A program made the translations under genes and the position numbers. Positions 2,438 through 15,761 of a stretch of DNA of 16,025 bases are shown here, piece after piece; position 1 is the stretch's first letter; each line of letters starts with the position of its first letter. Source of the DNA: Rubrobacteraceae bacterium (lineage in GTDB: Bacteria > Actinomycetota > Rubrobacteria > Rubrobacterales > Rubrobacteraceae). The notes beneath the pieces are model-generated. The model had not been told where the DNA came from and searched no databases. It saw nothing but the letters and a program-made list of their open reading frames with translations. The stretch spans positions 1 through 16,025 of the forward strand of contig JAUJMB010000020.1 of assembly GCA_030447045.1 (NCBI GenBank), given 5' to 3'.

Positions 2438-3880
2438 ATGCAGACAGAGACCAAGAGCATAAAGAACTTCGTCAACGGGGAGCACGTCGACCCCGCCGAC
2501 GGACGTTATTACGACGTGACGAACCCCGCAACGGGCGAGGTCTTTGCCCAGGCCCCGGCCTCGGGCAAGGAGGACGTGGACCGGGCCTACAGGGCCGCCG
2601 AGAAGGCCTTCGAGGGGTGGCGCGACGCGACGCCGGCCACGAGGCAGCTCGCGCTGTTCAGGATCGCCGACGCCCTGGAGGAGCGGGCCGAGGAGATAGT
2701 GCGGGCCGAGTCCGAGAACACCGGCAAGCCCATCGGGCTCACCATGGAAGAAGAGATACCGATGGCGGTCGACCAGATCCGGTTCTTCGCCGGCGCCGCA
2801 CGGGTGCTCGAGGGCAAGTCCGCCGGCGAGTACCTCGAGGGCCACACCTCCTTTATCCGGCGCGAGCCCGTGGGCGTCTGCGGCCAGGTTACCCCCTGGA
2901 ACTACCCGATGATGATGGCGGTCTGGAAGTTCGTCCCGGCCATCGCCGCCGGCAACGCCGTCGTACTCAAACCCTCGGACACGACCCCGATCTCGACCGT
3001 GATGCTCGCCGAGATCGCCGCCGAGTTCCTGCCGCCCGGCGTCTTCAACGTGGTCTGCGGCGACCGCGACACCGGCCGCGCCGTCGTCGAGCACCCGATC
3101 CCGCAGATGGTCTCCATCACGGGCTCCGTGCGCGCCGGGATGCAGGTCGCCGAGGCCGCGGCCAAAGACCTCAAGAGGACGCACCTCGAGCTCGGCGGCA
3201 AGGCGCCGGTCATCGTCTTCGACGACGCGGACATCGAGGCCGCGGCAGAGGCCATAGCCGTCGGCGGCTACTTCAACGCCGGCCAGGACTGCACCGCCGC
3301 CACCCGCGTCCTCGCCGCCCCCAAGGCCTACGACGACTTCGTCGCCGCCCTGACGGAGCAGGCCAAGAACACCAAGACCGGACGCCCCGACGACGAGGAC
3401 GTCCTCTACGGTCCGCTCAACAACCCGACCCAGCTCGAGCACGTCTCCGGCATGGTCGAGCGGCTCCCCGGGCACGCCGAGGTGACCGCCGGCGGGCAGA
3501 AGGCCGGCAACGGCTCGGGGTACTTCTACTCACCCACCGTCGTCTCCGGCCTCAGGCAAGACGACGAGGCGTCGCAGACCGAGATCTTCGGCCCCGTCAT
3601 CACCGTCCAGTCCTTCTCTGATGAGGACGAGGCGGTGAGGTGGGCAAACGGCGTCAGGTACGGCCTGGCCTCGAGCGTCTTCACCAAGGACCACGGTCGG
3701 GCGATGCGGGTCAGCCGCAGGCTGGACTTCGGGTGCGTCTGGATCAACACGCACATCCCCCTCGTCGCCGAGATGCCCCACGGCGGCTTCAAGCACTCGG
3801 GCCACGGCAAGGACCTCTCCATGTACGGCCTCGAGGACTACACCCGCATCAAGCACGTAATGACGAACCTGGAGGCCTAG
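2438..3880 (+). CDS. NAD(P)-dependent aldehyde dehydrogenase, gamma-aminobutyraldehyde/betaine-aldehyde type
   Basis: Oxidises an aldehyde to the acid with NAD(P)+; the closest resemblance is to gamma-aminobutyraldehyde dehydrogenase of putrescine breakdown. At 480 residues it has the full ALDH fold. It shows PWNYP with the oxyanion Asn155, LKPSD with cofactor Lys178, ITGSV (227-231), the general base Glu251 in LELGGKAP, and the nucleophile Cys285 in NAGQDCTAATR. The C-terminal FGCVWINTH and PHGGFKHSGHGKDL segments are those of aminoaldehyde dehydrogenases. ATG 2438 is preceded by AAGGAGAGGAG (about 2420-2430). It lies 41 bases after the FAD oxidoreductase, probably in the same operon. Betaine aldehyde or another omega-aminoaldehyde is an alternative substrate; the ALDH assignment itself is certain. 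Confidence 0.92.
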   Translation: MQTETKSIKNFVNGEHVDPADGRYYDVTNPATGEVFAQAPASGKEDVDRAYRAAEKAFEGWRDATPATRQLALFRIADALEERAEEIVRAESENTGKPIGLTMEEEIPMAVDQIRFFAGAARVLEGKSAGEYLEGHTSFIRREPVGVCGQVTPWNYPMMMAVWKFVPAIAAGNAVVLKPSDTTPISTVMLAEIAAEFLPPGVFNVVCGDRDTGRAVVEHPIPQMVSITGSVRAGMQVAEAAAKDLKRTHLELGGKAPVIVFDDADIEAAAEAIAVGGYFNAGQDCTAATRVLAAPKAYDDFVAALTEQAKNTKTGRPDDEDVLYGPLNNPTQLEHVSGMVERLPGHAEVTAGGQKAGNGSGYFYSPTVVSGLRQDDEASQTEIFGPVITVQSFSDEDEAVRWANGVRYGLASSVFTKDHGRAMRVSRRLDFGCVWINTHIPLVAEMPHGGFKHSGHGKDLSMYGLEDYTRIKHVMTNLEA

Positions 3881-3950: not shown

Positions 3951-4241
3951 CTACCCCGGGCCATCTCCTTTGGCGAGCCACTCTCTACGGAGCGCCGCGT
4001 ACAGGTACTCGCTGGACCATCGTCCCTTGAACCGGGCGTTCTCGACGAAGGCGCCCTCGCGGCGCAGGCCGATCCGCTCCAGGACGGCGGCCGAGGGCGC
4101 GTTCTCCCTATCCACCACCGCGCAGACGCGGTGCAGGCCGAGAACCCGGAACGCGTGGTTGAGCAGGCGCGAGACGGCCTCCGTGGCGTAGCCCTCCCCC
4201 CAGTGCCCCCGGGCGAGGGTGTAGCCGGGCTCGGCCGTCAA
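3951..4241 (-). pseudogene. GNAT acetyltransferase remnant, RimJ/RimL type, N-terminal half missing
   Basis: Only 96 residues can be recovered, from a possible TTG at 4241 to TAG at 3953-3951. They match the second half of a RimJ/RimL-like acetyltransferase: the acetyl-CoA loop ARGHWGEGYATEA, HRVCAVVDRENAPSAAVLERIGLRREG, and the ending FKGRWSSEYLYAALRREW. Complete members are about 170-185 residues, and the first strands and substrate-binding helices are absent here. Upstream in the same frame the sequence becomes Arg/Pro-rich and non-homologous where the permease C-terminus begins. The possible TTG start overlaps the permease stop codon (TTTGA), so a coupled short protein could be made, but half a GNAT fold is unlikely to be active. 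A deletion that brought the permease end against this remnant is the simplest reading. Confidence 0.7.
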
Positions 4242-5692
4242 ACGGACGGGGCCCCCGTCGGGTCGCCTTCGAGGGCCTGCTCGCTGGCCCGGATCTCCTC
4301 CCCCTCCGCCTCGACGTCGAGGGAGCGGCTGAGAAGGTAGTAGACCGCACCGGAGACCAGCAGGCCGACGAGCCAGGCTATGTCGATGCCCTGGAGGACG
4401 TTGCCCAGGGGGGCCGTCCAGAGGCCGGGTAGGACCCAGAACGGGACGCTGGCGGCGAGGCCGGCGAGGAAGGCGGCGATGCCGCGCCAACCCCAAGTCC
4501 CGTAGAGGCCGCCCGGAACGAAGAGCTCGGTGATCGCGTACCGGCCATGCCTCACAAAGAAGTAGTCGATAAGGTTGACGGCGGTCCACGGCGCGAGCAG
4601 GTACAGCATCATGATGAGCGCCGCGAAGAGCACGCCCACCGCCTCCGCGGAGATGCTTAAAGAGACGGCCACCCAGAGCACCGCGAGCGCGAGGATGGTG
4701 ACCACCCGCAGCCGCCGCGTCGGCTCCACCTTCTTTACGGCGTCGATGGCGGTGACGGTGGTGAGCATCGCCCCGTAGGCGTTTATGCCCATCGTCGCCA
4801 CGAGAGCGGCGACCGAGGAGAGGGCGAGCACTACGCCGAGGCCCGTGAAGACGGCGTCGCCGGCGTCGCGTAGAGAGACGAGAGCGTCGGTGGCGTCCAG
4901 GCGGGTGGCGAGCCAGGCCCCGAGCGCTATGAGCCAGACCGCGGACCCCGAGGCCCCGAAAAAGACGGCGGCGATGATGGCGCGCGGCCGGGTGTGGCGC
5001 GGCAGGTAGCGCGAGTAGTCCGAGACGTAGGGCGCGTAGGTGATGTTGTAGGAGGCGCTCGCCGTGAACTGGGCCATAAAGGCGATCCAGGAGAACGACC
5101 CCGGCGACGAGCCGCTCCCCCCCGCCCCGCCGAGGATGATGGCGACCGTCAGGATCACGTACAGGGGCAACGATATGTAGAAGAGCACCCGGAAGAGCGT
5201 GTGCAGGTAGTCGTGGCCGTAGATGGCGAAGAGCGCCGAGATCACCGCTATGGCCACGATGACCACCGTCCCGTTCCACCCGAAGAGCCCGTCGAGGCCG
5301 GCCGAGATGAGCACGGAGTCGACGACGTTGAACGCCACGAACGTGAAGAACGTGGCCACCAGCGGCAAGAGGACCCCCCTGTAGCCGAACTGCCCCCTGG
5401 ACTAGACCATCTGCGGCAACCCGAGCTGCGCGCCCTGGATCGCATGAAACGCCATGAACAGCGTCCCGAACAGGATGCCGAGCGTACCGGCCAGGATGGT
5501 CCAACCGAGCGAGAGTCCCAGCCCCGGCCCTATGAAGCCTATCGTGATCGTAAAGAACTGGAAGTTCCCTAAAAACCAGAAGGGCCCCTGGTGCCACACC
5601 TTCCCGTGCCGCTCGTCCTCCGGCACGTAGTCGATGGAGCGGCGCTCTATCTGCCGCCCCAGCCCCTCCCCGCCCTCAGCGCTGGCCGCCAT
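4238..5692 (-). pseudogene. NCS1-family nucleobase/allantoin-type permease interrupted by an in-frame TAG
   Basis: Read through, this encodes a 484-codon multi-spanning membrane protein of the nucleobase:cation symporter-1 family, which imports cytosine, purines, allantoin, hydantoins or similar compounds. The N-terminus has the family's RRSIDYVPEDERHG stretch and a first helix beginning PFWFLGNFQFF; later segments include SYNITYAPYVSDYSRYLP and WTAVNLIDYFFVRHGRYAI. The frame is intact except for one stop, TAG at 5404-5402 (codon 97), inside GLPQMV-stop-SRGQFGYRG. Relatives have Gln at this place, so a CAG to TAG change is the likely cause. The 96 residues before it contain only the first helices; the longest methionine- or valine-initiated piece after it starts near 5368 and lacks them. 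ATG 5692 is preferred over GTG 5698 because GAAGAGG lies five bases before it. It has its own promoter and follows an amidase gene. Confidence 0.85.
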
Positions 5693-5697
5693 CTTCA

Positions 5698-5704
5698 CCT
5701 CTTC
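5698..5704 (-). promoter_or_regulatory. Ribosome binding site of the permease gene
   Basis: GAAGAGG on the minus strand stands five bases before the ATG at 5692. It overlaps the alternative GTG at 5698, which argues for the ATG as the real start. Confidence 0.5.
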
Positions 5705-5744
5705 CCGTCCCTACCATCGCGTTCTAGTCAACCTTCATCGTTCC

Positions 5745-5773
5745 AGTCTAAAGAGGCGTGCAGGGGCGGTCAA
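5745..5773 (-). promoter_or_regulatory. Sigma-70-type promoter for the permease, overlapping the amidase stop codon
   Basis: On the minus strand TTGACC (5773-5768) and TAGACT (5750-5745) are separated by exactly 17 bases, close to the housekeeping consensus. The expected start of transcription is near 5738, leaving a leader of about 45 bases before the permease ATG. The TGA stop of the amidase (5772-5770) lies within the -35 hexamer, so the permease can be transcribed apart from the amidase. Confidence 0.65.
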
Positions 5774-7161
5774 CGTGCAAGATTAAAGGATTCTTCGAAG
5801 GCTTGTCCGAAGCGGTAGAGGGTCGCCTCGTCGAAGGGGCGTCCGATGAGTTGCAGCCCGACGGGGAGGCCCGAGGAGTTGGTCCCGCAGGGCACGGAGA
5901 GGCTCGGGAGGCCGTTCAGGTTCGTGGGTCCGGTGAGGCGGGTGAGGGCGGAGTAGACGGCCTCCTCGTGGCCCTGGATGGAGATCTCCCTCTGGCCGAT
6001 CTCGGTCGCCACGATCGGGACGCTCGGGGCGAGGATCACATCCACCCCCCCGAGCACCCCCTCGAACTCCCGGCGCGAGAGCAGCTTCCTCTCCTGGGCG
6101 TTCGCGTACCTGTAGGCCCTGAGTTCCTCGCCCTTGAGCAGGCGCTCGAGCCCCTGGTCGTCGAACCTCTCGGGCTCGGACCTCAACCGCTCCTCGTGGA
6201 CGGCGTAGGCCTCGGCGGCCAGGGTCAGGCGCTGGGCGTGCAGCGTCTCCCAGAGGTTCGGCACCTCGACCTCGCGGACCTTTGCGCCGAGTTCCCCGAA
6301 GACCTCGATGGCCTCCCGCACCCTCGCCTCGACCTCCCGATCCACGTGCTCGAAAAAGAAGCCCGTCGGGACGCCGACGGTGGCGCCCCGGACGCCGCGG
6401 TCCAGGTCGCGGGCGAAGTCTTCGGGAGGCAGGTCCGCGGAGTGGAGGTCTTGCGGGTCGTGGCCGGCGAGGGCGGAGAGGAGGAGGGCGTTGTCCTCGA
6501 CGGTGCGGGTGAGGGGGCCTACGTGGTCGAGGGTCCGGGCCAGGGGGAAGACCCCGCTCTTGCCCACGCGCCCGAAGGTCGGCTTCATGCCGACGACGCC
6601 GCAGAGGGCGGCGGGGATGCGGATGGAGCCGCCCGTGTCGGAGCCGATGGCACCGTAGCAGAGTTCGGTGGCGACGGCGGTGCCCGAGCCGCCGGAGGAG
6701 CCGCCGGAGATCTTACCCGGGTCGTGCGGGTTCCTCGTCGGCCCGAAAAAGGAGCGGTCCCCCGTCGGCCCGTAGGCGAACTCGTGGGTGTTCGTCTTGC
6801 CGAGGAGGACGGTCCCGGCCTCGCGGAGCTTGCGCGCGACCGCCGCGTCCTCTTCGGGGACGTGGTCCTCGAAGAAAGCGGAGGCCATCGTGGTCCTGAC
6901 GCCCGCGGTGGAGACGAGGTCCTTTATGGCGACGGGTACCCCGTGCAGCGGGCCGCGCTGCCTTCCAGCCGAGATCTCCGCCTCCGCCCGCCGCGCGTCC
7001 TCCATCGCCCGCTCGGCCGCCACCGTGATAAACGCGTTTGTCCCGTCGAGATCTATGCGCCCGAGCAACGCCTCCGTCACCTCGACCGGCGAGACCTCCC
7101 CCGCCCGCAGGGCGCGCGAGAGCCCCGCGAGCGAACCTGGAAACTCCGTTCTACGAGCCAA
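5770..7161 (-). CDS. Amidase, amidase-signature family (GatA-like), substrate unknown
   Basis: A 463-residue amidase-signature hydrolase that should cleave an amide bond. The Ser-cisSer-Lys triad is complete: Lys80 in VAIKD, the cis Ser155 in ISGGSSGGSG, and nucleophile Ser179 in GSDTGGSIRIPA. The following CGVVGMKPTFGRVG and the C-terminal NLNGLPSLSVPCG and LPVGLQLIG are family hallmarks. The start is TTG 7161, six bases after AAGGAG; no better in-frame ATG exists. It resembles GatA in the core, but no gatB or gatC is nearby and the gene heads a unit with an NCS1 permease, so a catabolic amidase acting on an imported ureide, hydantoin or nitrogen heterocycle product is more likely (inference). 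It could also be an indole-acetamide or aryl-amide hydrolase. With the permease broken, its physiological partner may be lost. Confidence 0.88.
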   Translation of the reverse strand: MARRTEFPGSLAGLSRALRAGEVSPVEVTEALLGRIDLDGTNAFITVAAERAMEDARRAEAEISAGRQRGPLHGVPVAIKDLVSTAGVRTTMASAFFEDHVPEEDAAVARKLREAGTVLLGKTNTHEFAYGPTGDRSFFGPTRNPHDPGKISGGSSGGSGTAVATELCYGAIGSDTGGSIRIPAALCGVVGMKPTFGRVGKSGVFPLARTLDHVGPLTRTVEDNALLLSALAGHDPQDLHSADLPPEDFARDLDRGVRGATVGVPTGFFFEHVDREVEARVREAIEVFGELGAKVREVEVPNLWETLHAQRLTLAAEAYAVHEERLRSEPERFDDQGLERLLKGEELRAYRYANAQERKLLSRREFEGVLGGVDVILAPSVPIVATEIGQREISIQGHEEAVYSALTRLTGPTNLNGLPSLSVPCGTNSSGLPVGLQLIGRPFDEATLYRFGQAFEESFNLAR

Positions 7162-7206
7162 AGCCTCTCCTTCCCGGCGGGTACAGGCGGAGTATCTCAG
7201 CAGGAA

Positions 7207-7344
7207 AGGCTTCGGGCCACAGGCTTCGGGCTTCAGGTCGGGTTGTTGGGCAAACCCATCGCAACCGCACCCACGTGGCCGGCAGGGCCCGATTCTCGGG
7301 CCCTGCGCCGCGCCCCAAGACCTGACACCTGAGGCCCGAAGCCT
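7207..7344. repeat. Nested inverted-repeat element in a divergent intergenic region
   Basis: AGGCTTCGGGC occurs twice in tandem (7207 and 7221). The second copy, extended to 18 bases (7221-7238), is repeated in inverted orientation at 7327-7344 with one mismatch. Between the arms lies a perfect 11-base hairpin, GCAGGGCCCGA (7282-7292) and TCGGGCCCTGC (7296-7306), with a TTC loop. The element fills most of the space between the divergent amidase and transporter genes. It encodes no recognisable protein and may be a small non-autonomous palindromic element or a regulatory structure. Confidence 0.6.
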
Positions 7345-7360: not shown

Positions 7361-8584
7361 GTGATCTCTCGTGCCGCAAAGGCGTTCCGGGGCTTCGACC
7401 GTCGGGTGTGGCTGCTGCTCTTCGCCATGCTCGTGTTCCGGTTCGGGCACGGGCTGTACTTCCCGTTCAGCTCGATCTACTTCCACAACGTCCTCGGCAT
7501 CCCGCTCTCCCTCGTGGGTGTGGGGCTTGCGGTCTTCGCCGGCTCTAGCGTGCTCTCCGGCCTGGTCGCGGGGCCGCTGACGGACCGTTACGGGCGCAAG
7601 CCGACGATGCTCGTGGCCCTCTCCGGGAGTGCCGCGAGCTTTCTCGGCTTCGCGCTGGTGGACGGCTTTGCCGGGTACCTGGCGGTCTCGGCGGCCCACG
7701 GGCTCGTTGGGTGGTCCATGTTCGAGGCCTCGCGCAACGCGATGGTCGCGGACGTGACGCCGCCGGGGATGCGCTCGCGCGCCTACGGCCTCGTGAGGGT
7801 CGGCGGCAACGTCGGCTGGGCCGCCGGCCCGATGTCTGCCGGCCTGATCTCGGCCGCCGCGGGAGGCTCGGCCGGCGTCTACCCGAAGCTCTTCGTCGGC
7901 ACCTCCGTCCTGACGGCGCTCGTCGCCCTCGCCCTCGCCGCGACCGTCCGCGAGTCGCTCCCCGCGCGGCAGGGGGGTGTCCCGGGCGGGAAGAACAGAC
8001 GGGGCCTGCGCGAGGCGTTTACGGACGGGCCGTTCGTCCTGCTGCTCGGCGTCGGGGTGCTGCTGTACTACGTCTTCACGCAGGACTGGCAGGCGCTGCC
8101 GATCTACGCCAAGAACTTCGTGGGGGTGCCAGACGGCCAGATAGGGTTCTTCCTGGGGGCGAACGGGCTCATGGTGATCCTGTTCCAGCTCCCCGTCTCC
8201 TACCTCATAGACCGGGGCTCCAGGGTGGTGGCGCTCCTCGCCGGGGCCGTCCTCTTCGCCCTCTCGTCCGCAACCCTGCTGCTGACGGAGTCTTTCTTGG
8301 GCATCCTCGTCGCCTTCGTCCTGTTCTTCACGCTCGCGGAGATGGTGCTCGAGGTCGCGGGGGCGGCGCTTGCCGCCGAGCTCGCGCCGGTGCGCCTGCG
8401 CGGGACGTACCTGGCGCTCTTCGGCGCCTGCTTCGGCGCGGCCTGCGGCGTGAGCCCCATCGTCGGCGGCTCGCTCCTCGGGGCCGGGATGCCGGACGCC
8501 ATCTGGACGATCCAGCTCGTGGCCGCCCTCCTCGCCGCGGCCGGCCTGCTGACGCTCGCCTTCCTGCGAAACCGCGCGAAATAG
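7361..8584 (+). CDS. Major facilitator superfamily transporter, DHA1-like
   Basis: A 407-residue integral membrane protein with about 12 predicted helices in two halves joined by a loop near 190-215 (PARQGG...KNRRGLREAF). The MFS signature motif A is clear between helices 2 and 3: GPLTDRYGRK (71-80). Helix 1 begins VWLLLFAMLVFRFGHG. The fold and length fit proton-coupled drug or metabolite exporters of the MdtH/YfmO-like DHA1 type; the substrate cannot be read from the sequence. The start is taken as GTG 7361 because the frame further upstream runs through the intergenic inverted repeat and the divergent amidase gene, and a promoter lies directly before it. It is a single-gene unit with a hairpin downstream. 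Confidence 0.85.
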   Translation: MISRAAKAFRGFDRRVWLLLFAMLVFRFGHGLYFPFSSIYFHNVLGIPLSLVGVGLAVFAGSSVLSGLVAGPLTDRYGRKPTMLVALSGSAASFLGFALVDGFAGYLAVSAAHGLVGWSMFEASRNAMVADVTPPGMRSRAYGLVRVGGNVGWAAGPMSAGLISAAAGGSAGVYPKLFVGTSVLTALVALALAATVRESLPARQGGVPGGKNRRGLREAFTDGPFVLLLGVGVLLYYVFTQDWQALPIYAKNFVGVPDGQIGFFLGANGLMVILFQLPVSYLIDRGSRVVALLAGAVLFALSSATLLLTESFLGILVAFVLFFTLAEMVLEVAGAALAAELAPVRLRGTYLALFGACFGAACGVSPIVGGSLLGAGMPDAIWTIQLVAALLAAAGLLTLAFLRNRAK

Positions 8585-8622
8585 CTCGTCAGCCCGGCAC
8601 TCCGCGCCTCTCAGCACGCTTT

Positions 8623-8637
8623 GGGCCTTTTAGGCCC
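8623..8637. terminator. Short hairpin after the transporter gene, possible terminator
   Basis: GGGCCT (8623-8628) and AGGCCC (8632-8637) form a six-base stem with a TTT loop, 38 bases after the transporter stop. It lies between convergent genes and could serve both. There is no clear T-run, so its strength is uncertain. Confidence 0.4.
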
Positions 8638-8645
8638 TCGCTCTC

Positions 8646-8709
8646 AGCCCGTCAGCTAGAGAGCCGAAGTGCTGACCGGCTGAAATGCTGACAGGCTAAA
8701 ATGCTGACT
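8646..8709. repeat. Imperfect tandem and inverted intergenic repeat
   Basis: A 16-base unit occurs about two and a half times: TGCTGACCGGCTGAAA (8670-8685), TGCTGACAGGCTAAAA (8686-8701), then TGCTGACTA (8702-8710). The first unit also pairs with AGCCCGTCAGC at 8646-8656 (10 of 11 bases), forming a hairpin. Related words occur after the FAD oxidoreductase (about 2384-2400) and near 13246-13260, so it seems to belong to a dispersed family placed at gene ends. Confidence 0.55.
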
Positions 8710-8737
8710 AGCGGAGCCCGAAGGGCGGAGCGTGCTG

Positions 8738-10885
8738 CTACGTGGCGCGCAGGACGAGCACCGCTAGGTCGTCCCTGGCGTAGCCCTCCTGGAAATTGAG
8801 GACGACGTTCTTTAGTTCGGCGGCGAGGAGCGCGGCGTGTTCGTGGGCGTGGGCGCCGACGAATTGGCGCAGGCGTTCCTCGCCGAAGAAGCTGCCGTCT
8901 GGCGAGCGCGCCTCGGTGACGCCGTCGGTGTAGAAGACCATCGTCTCCCCCGGCATGAGGCGCGTGTGGGTGTCGCCGAGCTCGGCGTCGGGGAAGACGC
9001 CGAGGGCGCGGCCGGGGCAGCTGATCTCCTCGACCGACCCGTCGGCGCGGACCACGAGCGGGGGCGGGTGCCCGGCGCGCGAGACGTCGACGCCGACGCC
9101 GGGGCCGTCGTCCAAGGGCTCCAGGCGGGCGCAGGCCGCGGTGCAGAAGCGGTCCTCGGGGAGCTGGCGGACCATGGCCTCGTTGAGGCCGGAGAGGATG
9201 GCGGAGGGCAGGTCGTTGCTCATGGTGACGGCGCGGACGGTGTAGCGGGCCAGGGCCGTGACCGCGGCCGCCTCCGCCCCCTTGCCCCGCACGTCGCCTA
9301 TGGCGCAGATCCAGCCGTCCTCCACGGTGTTTATGACGTCGTAGAAGTCCCCGCCGACCTCGTTTGCCTCGCCGGCGGACAGGTACTCGGCCCCGAGCTC
9401 GACGCCGGGTATCTGGGGCAGGTGCGGGGGCAGGAGGCTCCTCTGGAGGGTGCGCGCGATCTCGCTCCGGTCCCGGTAGAGCCTGGCGTTGTCCACGGCG
9501 AGCGCGCACCGGTAGGCGAGGTTCTCCGCGAGCAGCAGGTCCTCGTCGTCGTAGCTGCGGTCGGGCCGGGAGGAGACGAGCGTCATGGCGCCTAAAGTTC
9601 GGCCGCGCGCCAGGAGCGGCACGCTCATCAGGGAGCGGGGCTCGAGCTCGCGCAGCACCCCGAGGTGCTCGCCGGCCCCCACCTCCCGCCCGTAGAGGGA
9701 CCCGTCGGGGAGCCCGGACAGCAGGACGGACCGCCCCGTCCTCAGCACCTCGGCGGTGCTGCCGGGGTCGTCCTCGCCGAAGGTGCGGTGCTCCGCCAGC
9801 TCGAGGAGGAGGTCCTCTTTCTCCGGGTCTACGTGGGCGGCGGCGAGCTGGTTTACCCTGCCGTCCTCCTCGGCTATGTCGATCAGGCACCAGTCTGCGA
9901 GGTCCGGGACCAGCAGGCGCGTCGCCCGCCGGAGCGTGTCCTCGTAGTCCAGGGACGCCGAGAGCGTCGGTCCCGCGGCGGCGAGCAGGGCCAGCCGCCG
10001 CCGGGCGGCGACGGCCTCCGCGCGGGCGAGCTGCTCGCGCACGAGCAGGAGGTCGCGCTCCTCCTCGACCCTCTTGCGCTCGCTTATGTCCTCGATCACG
10101 GCGATAAAGTACCGGGGCTCCCCCGACGCCTCGCGCACGAGCGAGACCGTCAGGTTTACCCAGACGGTGGAGCCGACCTTCTTGACGTAGCGCTTCTCCA
10201 TCGTGAAGGTCTGGCTCTCCCCCCGCAGCATGGCCCGGGTCTGCTCGAGGTCCGCCTCGAGGTCCTCCGGGTGGGTGATGTCGGCGAAGGTCATCCCGAG
10301 CATCTCATCCTGGGTGTAGCCGACGATCTCGCACAGGCGCCGGTTGACCCGCAGCCAGCGGCCGTCGATCCCGACCTGGGCCGCGCCGACGGCGGCGTGC
10401 TCGAAGGTGGCCCTGAAGCGCTCCTCGCTCTCGCGCAGGATCTCCTCGATCCTCCTTCTCTCGGTGATGTCGTTCTGGACCCCGATAAAGTTGGTGAGCC
10501 GTCCCCCGTCGTCGTGGACGGGCGAGATGTACAGCTCGTTCCAGAAGGGTTCCCCGTCCTTGCGGTAGTTCCGCAAGACCACCCGGCACTCCCGCTCCTC
10601 CCGCAGGGCGGCCCGCAGCTCGGCGAGCACCGGCTGGTCTCTCTCGTCGCCCTGCAGGAAGCGGCAGTTGCGCCCCCGGGCCTCGTCCGCTCTGTAGCCC
10701 GAGATCCTCTCGAACGCCGGGTTTACGTAGACGATGGGGTTGTCCGGGAGCTTCGGGTCCGTGATCACGATGCCGTTCGCGCTCGCGGCGACGGCCCGGT
10801 CGAGCAGGCGGCGCATCTCGTCCGGGGCGGAGAGCCCCGGGGCGTCGCGCCCGGCCGTTGAGGAGGTCGTGTCCAAGTACCGCAT
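8738..10885 (-). CDS. LOV-PAS-GAF-PP2C protein: predicted blue-light-sensing serine phosphatase (RsbU/SpoIIE-like)
   Basis: A 715-residue soluble signalling protein. Residues about 25-143 are a LOV domain with the flavin-adduct motif GRNCRFLQG (71-79, Cys74), NYRKDG with Asn106, FWN with Asn116 and FIGVQ with Gln137, the residues that hold FMN in phototropin-type photoreceptors. A second PAS/PAC domain spans about 153-270 and ends in a helical linker (267-300). A GAF-like domain spans about 300-470. A SpoIIE-type PP2C phosphatase domain spans about 475-714, with metal ligands in GGDFYDV (Asp513), IGDVRGKG (Asp531), YTDGVTEA (Asp654) and ARDDLAVL (Asp705/706). Relatives dephosphorylate anti-anti-sigma factors to release a stress sigma factor; no STAS or anti-sigma gene is in the window, so the partner is unknown. 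ATG 10885 follows a G-rich stretch. It is divergent from the superoxide dismutase gene. Confidence 0.9.
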   Translation of the reverse strand: MRYLDTTSSTAGRDAPGLSAPDEMRRLLDRAVAASANGIVITDPKLPDNPIVYVNPAFERISGYRADEARGRNCRFLQGDERDQPVLAELRAALREERECRVVLRNYRKDGEPFWNELYISPVHDDGGRLTNFIGVQNDITERRRIEEILRESEERFRATFEHAAVGAAQVGIDGRWLRVNRRLCEIVGYTQDEMLGMTFADITHPEDLEADLEQTRAMLRGESQTFTMEKRYVKKVGSTVWVNLTVSLVREASGEPRYFIAVIEDISERKRVEEERDLLLVREQLARAEAVAARRRLALLAAAGPTLSASLDYEDTLRRATRLLVPDLADWCLIDIAEEDGRVNQLAAAHVDPEKEDLLLELAEHRTFGEDDPGSTAEVLRTGRSVLLSGLPDGSLYGREVGAGEHLGVLRELEPRSLMSVPLLARGRTLGAMTLVSSRPDRSYDDEDLLLAENLAYRCALAVDNARLYRDRSEIARTLQRSLLPPHLPQIPGVELGAEYLSAGEANEVGGDFYDVINTVEDGWICAIGDVRGKGAEAAAVTALARYTVRAVTMSNDLPSAILSGLNEAMVRQLPEDRFCTAACARLEPLDDGPGVGVDVSRAGHPPPLVVRADGSVEEISCPGRALGVFPDAELGDTHTRLMPGETMVFYTDGVTEARSPDGSFFGEERLRQFVGAHAHEHAALLAAELKNVVLNFQEGYARDDLAVLVLRAT

Positions 10886-10903
10886 TCTACAGCCCCCCGC
10901 GAC

Positions 10904-10909
10904 ATCTTA
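10904..10909 (-). promoter_or_regulatory. Possible -10 element for the LOV phosphatase gene
   Basis: TAAGAT on the minus strand ends 18 bases before the start codon. No convincing -35 hexamer stands at the usual distance, so an alternative sigma factor or an activator would be needed if this is real. Confidence 0.25.
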
Positions 10910-10936
10910 CCGGCGCCCCAAAACCTCCCCCGCACG

Positions 10937-10969
10937 TTAAAACCCGCCTTTTTCGGGGTATGCTAGAGT
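10937..10969 (+). promoter_or_regulatory. Possible promoter of the superoxide dismutase gene
   Basis: TTAAAA (10937-10942) and TATGCT (10959-10964) are 16 bases apart; an overlapping alternative -10 is TAGAGT (10964-10969). Transcription would start near 10972, giving a leader of about 35-40 bases that holds the ribosome binding site. The -35 match is modest. Confidence 0.35.
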
Positions 10970-11009
10970 CTGCAACGGGAAGTTAAGCAACGAGAGGAGA
11001 GAGACGAAC

Positions 11010-11639
11010 ATGGCATACGAGCTGCCGCAGCTCCCCTACGGCTACGACGCCCTGGAGCCCACGATAGACGAGCAGACGATGCACCTCCACCACGAGAAGC
11101 ACCACAACACCTACGTCACCAACCTAAACGCGGCCCTGGAGAAGCACCCGGAGGCCGACCCCGGCAACATCGAGGAGCTCATCGCCAACCTGGACTCCGT
11201 GCCCGAGGACATAAGGACCGCCGTAAGGAACAACGGTGGCGGGCACTCCAACCACTCGATGTTCTGGCAGATCATGGGCCCCTCCGGCCAGGGCGGGGGC
11301 AGCCCTTCCGGGAACCTGGCGCAGGCCATCGATTCCTCGTTCGGCTCGTTCGACGGGTTCAAGGAGCAGTTCGCAGCTGCCGCGGCCCCCGGCGCCCTCT
11401 TCGGCTCGGGCTGGGCCTGGCTGATAGCGGACCCCGGCGGCTCCCTCTCCATAGAGAAGACGGCCAACCAGGACAGCCCGCTCATGGAGGGCAAGACGCC
11501 GGTGATGGGCCTGGACGTGTGGGAGCACGCCTACTACCTCAAGTACCAGAACCGCCGCCCGGAGTACATCAACGCCTGGTGGGACGTCGTCAACTGGGAA
11601 GAGGTCGGCCGCCGCTACGACGCCGCCAGTAACGCCTAG
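11010..11639 (+). CDS. sodA: Superoxide dismutase, manganese type
   Basis: Converts superoxide to hydrogen peroxide and oxygen in the cytoplasm (no signal peptide). The 209-residue protein has the whole Fe/Mn-SOD fold. Metal ligands are His27 in [13 protein letters not shown], His82 in [11 protein letters not shown], and Asp169 and His173 in [13 protein letters not shown]. The NQDSP segment (153-157) supplies the active-site Gln in the position typical of Mn rather than Fe enzymes; cambialistic use is still possible. ATG 11010 is preceded by a GAGGAG-rich ribosome binding site. It starts 124 bases from the divergent LOV phosphatase gene, which could share regulation, and is followed by a strong hairpin, so it is probably transcribed alone. 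Confidence 0.95.
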
Positions 11640-13285: not shown

Positions 13286-14836
13286 CTAGAACCTCTCCAC
13301 GACCGTCCTGGCGAGCATGTGCAGGGGCAGGTAGTCGGGGCCGCCGGCCTTGGAGTCGGTGCCGCTCATGCCGAAGCCGCCGAAGGGCTGGACGCCGACC
13401 AGGGCGCCGGTTATGCCGCGGTTGAAGTAGACGTTGCCGGCCTTGAACTCGTGGCGGGCGCGCTCGAGGTGGTCGCGGTTCTTGGAGTAGACGCCGCCGG
13501 TGAGGCCGTAGGGGGAGTCGTTGGCGAGCTTGAGGGCGTCGTCGAAGTCGCGGGCCTTGAGGACGGAGAGGACGGGGCCGAAGATCTCCTCCCGCGCCAC
13601 CGTGGCGTCCGGCTCGACCGCGAAGATGGTGGGGCTTACGAAGTAGCCGTCCCGGGGGTCGCCCGGGTCCTCGCCGAGCAGCCTCTCCCCCTCCTTCTTG
13701 CCGGCGTCCACGAAACCCGACACCTTCTCGAACTGGGGCTCGCTTATGACGGGCCCGATGTTCACGTCGGGGGTCTCGGGGACGCCTATTTTGAGCATCT
13801 TCGCCCTCTCGACGACCTTGTCCAGGACCTCGTCGTAGACGTCCTCGTGCAGGATGGCGCGGCTCGCGGCGGAGCACTTCTGGCCCGAGTAGCCGTAGGC
13901 GCTCTTGACGATGTCCGCGGCGGCCGAGTCGAGGTCGGCGGAGTCGTCTATGACCATCGCGTCCTTGCCGCCCATCTCGGCGATGACCCGCTTGACCCAC
14001 CGCTGGTTCTCTATCTGCCTGGCGGCGCGCTCGTTTATGCGCAGGCCGGTCGCCATCGAGCCCGTGAAGGAGATAAAGCGCGTCCTCGCGTCCTCTACGA
14101 GGTAGTCGCCCACGTCCGAGCCGTAGCCGGGGAGGAAGTTCAGGACGCCGTCGGGGAGGCCGGCCTCCTCGAAGATCTCGGCGACGACCGCGCCTATGAC
14201 GCTCGTGAACTCCGAAGGCTTCATCACGACGGTGTTGCCGGTGACGATGGCGGCGCTCGACATGCCGGTCAAAATGGCGGTGGGGAAGTTCCAGGGGGCG
14301 ATGACGACGCCCACACCCATCGGCTGGTAGAAGTAGCGGCTCTCCTCGCCGGGTATCGCGTAGATCTCGACCCCGTCCTTGAGGCGCATCATCTCGCGGG
14401 CGTAGTACTCCAGGAAGTCTATGCCCTCGGCGACCTGCGCGTCGGCCTCGTTCCACGGCTTGCCGCCCTCGAAGACCTCCCACGCGAGAAGCTCGAACTT
14501 TCTACGCTTCATGATCGCAGACGCCCTGAGGAGCACGCGGGCGCGCGCCTCCGGCGTCGTCCGGCTCCAGTGCTCGAAGGCTGAGGTCGCGGCCTCTAGG
14601 GCCATGTCCGCCTCTTGCTCCGTGGCGGCGGCGGTCCGGCCGACGACCTGCGAGGGGTTGGCCGGGTTGACGGAGACGATCTCGCCGTCGGTCTCTATCG
14701 GCTTGCCACCGATGATGGCCGGGTGGTCCCTGCCGAGGCGGCCCTCGACGTCCTTTATGGCGGCGCGCATCCTCTCGACGTTCTTTTCGTCGGACCAGTC
14801 GAGGTACTCCTCGTTCTTGTACGGTATGAGGCCCAT
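13286..14836 (-). CDS. 1-pyrroline-5-carboxylate dehydrogenase (L-glutamate gamma-semialdehyde dehydrogenase)
   Basis: Carries out the second step of proline catabolism: oxidises glutamate gamma-semialdehyde, in equilibrium with 1-pyrroline-5-carboxylate, to glutamate with NAD+. The 516-residue protein is a full-length monofunctional enzyme of the RocA/PruA type. It shows APWNFP with Asn183, MKPSEF (205-210), the base Glu287 in AEMGGKDAM and the nucleophile Cys321 in YSGQKCSAASR. The N-terminal HPAIIGGKPIET and the C-terminal GVQPFGGFGMSGTDSKAGGPDYL are characteristic of this subfamily. Its ATG at 14836 is seven bases after the proline dehydrogenase stop, and its ribosome binding site (TAGGAG) overlaps that stop, so the two are translationally coupled. 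Confidence 0.95.
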   Translation of the reverse strand: MGLIPYKNEEYLDWSDEKNVERMRAAIKDVEGRLGRDHPAIIGGKPIETDGEIVSVNPANPSQVVGRTAAATEQEADMALEAATSAFEHWSRTTPEARARVLLRASAIMKRRKFELLAWEVFEGGKPWNEADAQVAEGIDFLEYYAREMMRLKDGVEIYAIPGEESRYFYQPMGVGVVIAPWNFPTAILTGMSSAAIVTGNTVVMKPSEFTSVIGAVVAEIFEEAGLPDGVLNFLPGYGSDVGDYLVEDARTRFISFTGSMATGLRINERAARQIENQRWVKRVIAEMGGKDAMVIDDSADLDSAAADIVKSAYGYSGQKCSAASRAILHEDVYDEVLDKVVERAKMLKIGVPETPDVNIGPVISEPQFEKVSGFVDAGKKEGERLLGEDPGDPRDGYFVSPTIFAVEPDATVAREEIFGPVLSVLKARDFDDALKLANDSPYGLTGGVYSKNRDHLERARHEFKAGNVYFNRGITGALVGVQPFGGFGMSGTDSKAGGPDYLPLHMLARTVVERF

Positions 14837-14843
14837 GGTGCTC

Positions 14844-15761
14844 CTATCGTTTGATGGCGCCGGTTATGCTCCCGATCACGTCTTTCGCGACGTAGCCGGC
14901 TATCTTCGGGTTCTCCTTCAGGCGTCGGGTCGAGTACTCGTACCAGTCCTCCCCATAAGGCACGTAGACCCTGAGCTTGTGGCCCGCGTTCACGAGGATG
15001 CTACGCAGCTCCTCGTCCACGCCGAGCAGCATCTGAAACTCGTAGCGGTCTTTCGGTATCTCGAGCTGGTGGATGAGCCTCAGGGCGTGCCAGATCAGGT
15101 ACTCGTCGTGCGTCGCTATCCCCACGTACACCCCGCCCTTGAGCAGCTCGTCGAGCAGAAATATGTAGTTCTGCCTGACGGTGTCGAAGTCCTTGTAGGC
15201 CACCGCGCGCGGCTCGTCGTAGATGCCCTTGCACAGCCTCACGGAGAAGCCAGCCTCGATAACGTTCTGCACGTCCTCCAGGCTGCGGCGCATGTACGCC
15301 TGCAGGACGGCCCCCGTGTTCTGGTGGCGCCTGTAGGTGTCGTGGACGATGGTCAGGGTGGCGTCGGTGTGCGGGGAGTCCTCCATGTCCACCCGGACGA
15401 AGCGGCCCCTACGGGCGGCGTACTCGACGATCTCCTCGACGTTGGCCCTGCACAACTCCTCGTTCAGCGTCAACCCGAGGCCCGTGAGCTTTATGGAGAT
15501 GCCGCCGGCCAGATCGTGCTCATCGAGGGTGTCCACCACCTTTTTGTAGTCCTTGAGCTTGCCGGCGGCGTCGGCCTTGCTCTCCGTGCTCTCCCCGAGA
15601 AGGTCGATGGTAACGACGCACCCCTCGCGGTTCAGGCCGCGCACCGTCCTGACGGCCTCCTCAAGCGTGTCGCCGGCGATGTAGCGGGAGGAGATCTTTT
15701 TGACGATGGGCCGCGGTATGACGGGCACCGAGTTCGCTATGGCCTTGTCGATGATGCCCAT
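14844..15761 (-). CDS. Proline dehydrogenase (monofunctional, FAD-dependent)
   Basis: Carries out the first step of proline catabolism: oxidises L-proline to 1-pyrroline-5-carboxylate, passing electrons through FAD to the membrane quinone pool. The 305-residue protein is the short, Gram-positive/Thermus-type barrel. Motifs equivalent to the PutA active site are present: Lys91 in IKLTG, Asp125 in VRVDMED, YEFQMLLG (240-247), YVPYG (266-270) and STRRLKENP (277-285), whose Arg279, Arg280 and Glu283 correspond to the substrate-binding residues. ATG 15761 is preceded only by a weak G-rich ribosome binding site. It is the first gene of a two-gene operon with the dehydrogenase for its product, which limits escape of the reactive intermediate. 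No dedicated regulator is visible. Confidence 0.94.
   Translation of the reverse strand: MGIIDKAIANSVPVIPRPIVKKISSRYIAGDTLEEAVRTVRGLNREGCVVTIDLLGESTESKADAAGKLKDYKKVVDTLDEHDLAGGISIKLTGLGLTLNEELCRANVEEIVEYAARRGRFVRVDMEDSPHTDATLTIVHDTYRRHQNTGAVLQAYMRRSLEDVQNVIEAGFSVRLCKGIYDEPRAVAYKDFDTVRQNYIFLLDELLKGGVYVGIATHDEYLIWHALRLIHQLEIPKDRYEFQMLLGVDEELRSILVNAGHKLRVYVPYGEDWYEYSTRRLKENPKIAGYVAKDVIGSITGAIKR

Follow-up and report, generated by a model that had tools for sequence, protein, structure and literature searches.

A predicted LOV photoreceptor phosphatase divergently paired with superoxide dismutase in Rubrobacteraceae

Here, a gene whose product is best modelled from its sequence as a soluble blue-light photoreceptor phosphatase is found head-to-head with a superoxide dismutase (SOD) gene, and this divergent arrangement is kept in 27 of the 29 LOV-phosphatase loci of relatives, over protein identities that fall to about 48%. 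The conserved pairing of phosphatase and SOD suggests that light may switch on antioxidant defence. LOV phosphatases are already known as a class; what is new here is a divergent pairing with SOD that is conserved and uses two different promoter types. The window, i.e. the whole stretch of 16,025 nucleotides that was analysed, belongs to Rubrobacteraceae, and its features are collected in Table 1. The best clue to the function of the phosphatase, namely this divergent SOD partner with its promoter, both conserved, had been overlooked in a preliminary description of the phosphatase gene; it lies just beyond the coordinates which that description covered.

Table 1. Coordinates of the phosphatase gene, its domains, the intergenic elements and the SOD gene in the window.
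Feature	Position	Strand	Remarks
LOV-PAS-GAF-PP2C (SpoIIE) protein	8738..10885	-	715 aa from ATG; likely start TTG 10876, 712 aa
SpoIIE/PP2C phosphatase domain	8744..9319	-	Pfam SpoIIE, residues 523-714; D513 just ahead of match
Long helix 447-484, GAF-to-phosphatase linker, predicted	9434..9547	-	Structure model
GAF domain, residues 313-464	9494..9949	-	Pfam GAF
Long helix 268-309, PAS-to-GAF linker, predicted	9959..10084	-	Structure model
Second PAS domain, residues 155-267	10085..10423	-	Pfam PAS; without LOV cysteine motif
LOV domain, residues about 27-145	10451..10807	-	Pfam PAS_9 match at 37-142; Cys74 codon 10664-10666
TAGAAT, -10-like element of LOV gene, conserved	10884..10889	-	7 nt upstream of TTG start
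GTTAA-N15-GGGTAT, conserved sigma-B-like SOD promoter, predicted	10936..10961	+	GGGTAT 54 nt ahead of SOD ATG
Fe/Mn-type SOD, 209 aa, divergent partner	11010..11639	+	Head-to-head with LOV gene

Architecture and residues of the phosphatase

The open frame described at 8738-10885 is present and lies on the minus strand (reading from 10885 to 8738); its product has 715 residues when counted from the ATG, but that start codon is probably three codons too early. Long plus-strand open reading frames overlap the gene, for example at 9665-10861; we interpret them as shadow frames, antisense to coding DNA that is GC-rich. The coupling of PAS, GAF and PP2C domains to a LOV domain, also part of the preliminary description, was confirmed by Pfam matches (Table 1), with SpoIIE (PF07228) passing the curated threshold at 154.8 bits against a cut-off of 25. 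The same scan detected neither a STAS domain nor the RsbT-binding N-terminal domain of RsbU in the window protein, and LOV stands at the N-terminus instead.

The first PAS domain had been called a LOV domain with GRNCRFLQG, Cys74, Asn106, Asn116 and Gln137, and every one of these was located at the position claimed, the motif spanning residues 71-79 with C74 inside it. A protein search scored 7998 candidates, of which 5139 are relatives at E <= 1e-3, and C74, N106, N116 and Q137 are unchanged in 120/120 of the best 120 relatives (query included). Those of the best 120 that are named below phylum are Rubrobacteraceae or Rubrobacter, and a Rubrobacter tropicus protein (P0043) shares 82% identity with the window protein. 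In a more diverse set of 42 sequences, which reaches down to about 48% identity and combines 21 from the protein search (query included) with 21 from the loci, N73, C74, R75, F76, L77, Q78, N106, N116 and Q137 are all invariant (42/42). Equally invariant in the 42 are D513, D531, D654, D705 and D706 of the phosphatase domain, which we take to be the PP2C metal ligands. At the level of sequence, the LOV residue pattern is not chance.

The AlphaFold2 model (mean pLDDT 84.2) has a LOV-like order of strands and helices with Cys74 starting a short helix; its pTM is only 0.50 and the arrangement of the domains within it is therefore unreliable. Foldseek aligned the LOV part of the model with crystal structures of LOV domains, among them 7r5n_B (rmsd 1.5, TMt 0.84). 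By sequence search, the solved structures that best match the N-terminal half are those of LOV photoreceptors, 6ph4 ranking first, and the nearest solved structure to the phosphatase part is Rv1364c (3ke6, E 1.1e-15). Of the two long helices that the model predicts as linkers, the one at 268-309 is a possible coiled-coil signalling helix. Residues and model alike thus lend strong support to the original proposal of an intact PP2C phosphatase that carries a photoactive LOV domain.

Linkage to the divergent superoxide dismutase gene

The best model match of the SOD gene scores 257 bits, under the equivalog cut-off of 363. Matches to the LOV protein were found in 15 of the 39 genomes of the family (E <= 1e-150) and matches to SOD in 32 of the same 39 (E <= 1e-30); in a phylum sample, the LOV-protein query matched 46 of 396 genomes (E <= 1e-100). 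Among the 45 family loci first examined, 28 have a LOV domain and 27 of these 28 also have a divergent SOD, the exception being L242 (G017); the start of the LOV match and the start of SOD lie 160-284 nt apart in the linked loci. Four more family loci comprise an unlinked LOV phosphatase (L271, G034), two LOV genes without phosphatase (L268, L269) and one phosphatase gene without the LOV motif (L270). The SOD query was the route to loci L099-L126, which are thus conditioned on SOD; the linkage is 26/28 when only loci found by the LOV-protein query are counted. L099, with a partial LOV gene before the contig end, was counted as linked, and L066 (G005), where the contig ends inside GAF, was left out of the counts. 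Because the loci are related, neither the linkage counts nor the promoter counts are independent trials.

The linked proteins themselves differ: some have the LOV-PAS-GAF-PP2C order of the window, others are LOV-GAF-PP2C proteins without the middle PAS domain, and there are also longer forms. Beyond the 39 family genomes, 17 genomes had matches at E <= 1e-100, and all 20 of the matched genes (several on stretches that reach contig ends) are without the LOV motif and without SOD nearby, so that in this sample the LOV-SOD pair is a family trait. As for the two unlinked LOV phosphatases, L242 (4986-6818) is a LOV-GAF-phosphatase away from SOD that keeps the GTARAAT leaderless start discussed below, and the SOD of the same genome (L113) has neither element near its start. 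The other, L271 (1924-5979), encodes a LOV phosphatase of 1352 residues with many PAS domains, no SOD beside it and no leaderless motif.

Adjacency of this kind may also be no more than inherited synteny or shared promoter space, with the light-activated phosphatase regulating something general and distant. In favour of this, MFS, amidase, NADH-oxidase-like and proline genes are likewise often conserved in the vicinity, all loci belong to a single family and do not count as independent cases, and in G017 and G034 LOV phosphatases do occur away from SOD. Nevertheless, we consider this explanation unlikely, for the neighbours on the other side vary (no MFS was found in L059, L061, L063 and L065, and L068, L103, L109 and L110 have neither MFS nor amidase), whereas the SOD pairing is conserved together with both promoter elements. 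Furthermore, five of the genomes concerned contain SOD paralogues that lack the elements (L101, L102, L112, L116, L118, L123 and L126).

Several individual loci extend the picture of the family. One genome, G031, holds two separate LOV-phosphatase/SOD divergent pairs (L062 and L065). At L107 in G035 (5857-7237), both intergenic elements and a short N-terminal frame stay beside SOD and LOV is lost, its place being taken by a membrane-PAS-GAF gene that is cut by the contig end; this is a natural sensor swap at one site. L268 in G025 (4551-5975) encodes a LOV-PAS protein with 61% identity to the window protein over residues 21-299, and its C-terminal end looks, by eye, like a LuxR-type helix-turn-helix, with neither phosphatase nor SOD.

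Two promoter elements in the intergenic region

The -10-like element of the LOV gene is part of a GTARAAT motif. Of 30 LOV-phosphatase genes, 29 have this motif with an in-frame ATG, GTG or TTG downstream of it, the distance being 6-8 nt in 28 and 10 nt in one; L271 is the gene that lacks it. Before the first three start codons of other genes at the same loci the motif was found in 0 of 186. GTARAAT placed 6-10 nt before a start is predicted, on sequence grounds, to be the mark of a leaderless mRNA. Start codon and exact spacing differ between lineages, yet the distance is almost constant, which is what a leaderless transcript would require. In the window, the conserved element overlaps the annotated ATG at 10885, which makes the TTG at 10876 the likelier start.

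On the SOD side, GGGTA lies 40-66 nt upstream of the start in 28/28 linked cases (the window and 27 loci); among 12 unlinked SOD genes it lies no farther than 70 nt from the start in two (L108 and L124). All 22 linked regions that were compared with shuffled sequence contain it, whereas shuffling gave 0.96 on average and 4 at most, and a generous count placed it before any of the first three start codons in 22 of 186 other genes at the same loci. L111 and L125 have incomplete SOD starts and stand outside the promoter counts; L100 (contig edge) and L107 (LOV missing) have both promoter elements and stand outside the 28 linked cases. In some members of the family the -35 half of the SOD promoter is variable. 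The form GTTT/GTTTAA-N-GGGTAT, with similar spacing, is that of sigma-B promoters in Bacillus and of sigma-F/B promoters in actinobacteria, and the sigma-B consensus is also given as GTTT/GTTA-N13-16-GGGTAT. The motif and its linkage, both observed, point to a sigma-B-like promoter that would be recognised by a sigma factor of this type.

Alternatively, GGGTAT could sit within an ordinary housekeeping promoter, in which case SOD would be constitutive and no sigma-B circuit would be involved. A housekeeping -10 of the form TANNNT, read from the TA of GGGTA, fits 10 of 22 SOD promoters, including TATGCT in the window, and the sigma-B-like pattern is weak genome-wide (see below). This alternative is nonetheless doubtful, given that GGGTA is kept in every linked case whereas the T of TANNNT is absent in 12 of the 22, that the spacing to GTTA agrees with known sigma-B promoters, and that a scan of 8400-11200 for sigma-70 and terminator patterns found none. 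An Rfam scan of the window gave no family.

The sigma-B-like SOD promoter pattern was also sought genome-wide in six genomes, giving 15 matches against 2 in reversed controls, and in its relaxed form GTTW-N15/16-GGGTAT 48 against 17, a modest enrichment. Only a handful of the 20 sites inspected lie shortly upstream of a gene and most are not neatly placed; part of the GGGTAT matches are presumably 16S rRNA, and the gene behind one site in both G015 and G016 is, we assume, a luciferase-like oxidoreductase. A regulon based on these genome-wide patterns was rejected, as the enrichment is too weak.

Proposed circuit and related systems

These data allow a circuit to be proposed, to which we give an even chance of being correct, whereby blue light activates the phosphatase, a SigB-type sigma factor is freed and SOD is transcribed. 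Judged by the residues present, blue light would very likely produce a flavin-Cys74 adduct in the N-terminal LOV domain. By analogy with RsbU, the change in LOV would be passed through PAS, GAF and the long helical linkers to a PP2C dimer whose activity would rise; the phosphatase would then dephosphorylate a STAS anti-sigma antagonist, which in that state would sequester an RsbW-like kinase and leave a SigB/F-type sigma factor free. The free sigma factor would transcribe the divergent SOD from GTTAA-N15-GGGTAT. The phosphatase itself would be made from its separate leaderless promoter, the motif of which is observed, so that sensor and target would share one intergenic region with different promoter types. 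Linkage and promoter conservation bear on the last step, from sigma factor to SOD, and the middle steps are family knowledge. According to the available text of PMC12143880, the RsbU phosphatase becomes dimeric and active through linkers that form a short coiled coil, and PAS, GAF and receiver sensors are argued to be exchangeable on phosphatases of the RsbU type. A broader proposal, held somewhat more tentatively than the circuit itself, is that the locus represents a compact photoprotective divergon of Rubrobacteria, in which a leaderless, constitutive LOV phosphatase and a SigB-type SOD promoter let blue light induce superoxide defence via partner switching, with sensor and phosphatase united in one protein, ahead of oxidative damage.

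It is improbable that the LOV flavin instead senses redox or oxygen in vivo, with the phosphatase reporting oxidative state rather than light and the SOD linkage forming a redox circuit, for although SOD is an oxidative-stress gene, PAS and GAF domains are generally known to sense redox or ligands often, and the gene beside SOD in G035 starts with membrane-PAS-GAF in place of LOV, the adduct cysteine is needless for a pure redox sensor and is invariant in both the 120 and the 42 sequences.

For the light-driven circuit, the anti-anti-sigma partner anticipated in the preliminary description is plausible insofar as the family genomes encode SigB/F/G-type sigma factors, RsbW-like proteins and STAS proteins, but genes of these three kinds were not seen next to the LOV gene at the loci examined. 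The SigB/F/G model TIGR02980 matches in all 39 family genomes at E <= 1e-20 and exceeds its curated cut-off in 33, compared with 10 and 1, respectively, of 14 control genomes. RsbW-like HATPases are present in six of six long-contig family genomes, and STAS proteins at the one family locus scanned. In G025, an operon-like row (L194, 3138-5592) comprises a GAF-PP2C phosphatase, an RsbW-like HATPase and two STAS genes, and at L196 (about 4239-5435) a similar HATPase is followed by two STAS-like genes; the HATPase and STAS proteins of these loci are candidate partners of the LOV phosphatase. At the start of the SigB-type gene there is an overlapping, conserved open reading frame, about 92 aa long (L187-L193; e.g. 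L190, 6642-6926), which is a candidate regulator of this sigma factor. Its identification as a degenerate RsbW was rejected: the one copy scanned has no Pfam match and profile comparison gave P 0.55.

That LOV domains on RsbU-like phosphatases form a known class, as had been stated, is borne out by the available text of PMC4844311, in which the SPOIIE phosphatase is named among the typical functions associated with LOV in bacteria. The window protein shares with that class a LOV photosensor fused to a SpoIIE/PP2C output; it differs in the PAS and GAF domains in between and in the SOD pair conserved in one family, a linkage not mentioned in the same text. YtvA, the LOV-STAS protein of Bacillus subtilis, resembles the proposed route in that blue light feeds a partner-switching sigma-B pathway, and the NCBIfam model YtvA_fam (NF052652) matches the LOV part at 180.3 bits, below its equivalog cut-off of 250. 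Unlike YtvA, the output of the window protein is a phosphatase and not STAS, and a stressosome role is not implied. RsbU and RsbP are likewise PP2C phosphatases driven by an N-terminal sensor via a helical linker (PMC12143880, available text), but the sensor in the window is LOV-PAS-GAF and the RsbU N-terminal domain is absent. Rv1364c is a PAS-PP2C-RsbW-STAS fusion (3ke6), so the partner domains fused there are absent from the window protein. The LOV-PAS half is best matched, in both sequence and fold, by the LOV-PAS histidine kinase of Brucella (6ph4, 6pps), the output of which is a histidine kinase.

Light input to sigma-B through YtvA, as well as light-raised SOD and catalase in Rhodococcus, are described in the available text of PMC12627116. 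Among the items listed by searches of the open-licence literature, none deals with a LOV protein of Rubrobacter, with a LOV-SOD pair or with a LOV phosphatase of known target; the Rubrobacter photoreceptor papers listed concern the rhodopsin RxR.

The conserved SOD partner and the two promoters make a generic prediction testable in one gene pair. Rubrobacter species are radiation tolerant, and a light-anticipating antioxidant switch would therefore be a concrete part of their biology. Furthermore, the LOV-phosphatase module could serve as a new optogenetic output.

The remaining genes of the window include, at 2438-3880, an aminobutyraldehyde dehydrogenase with 79.5% DNA identity to a Rubrobacter radiotolerans plasmid gene. 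A plasmid origin of the window was rejected, as the DNA matches are short and at gene level, with no record covering 80% of the protein. A FAD enzyme of the CrtO/CrtI carotenoid family lies at 813-2396 (289 bits to CrtO, cut-off 1000); it is possibly pigment-related and would then share the window with a light sensor. Finally, a proline dehydrogenase and P5C dehydrogenase pair occupies 13286-15761, and this pair is kept near the SOD and NADH-oxidase-like genes in several relatives.
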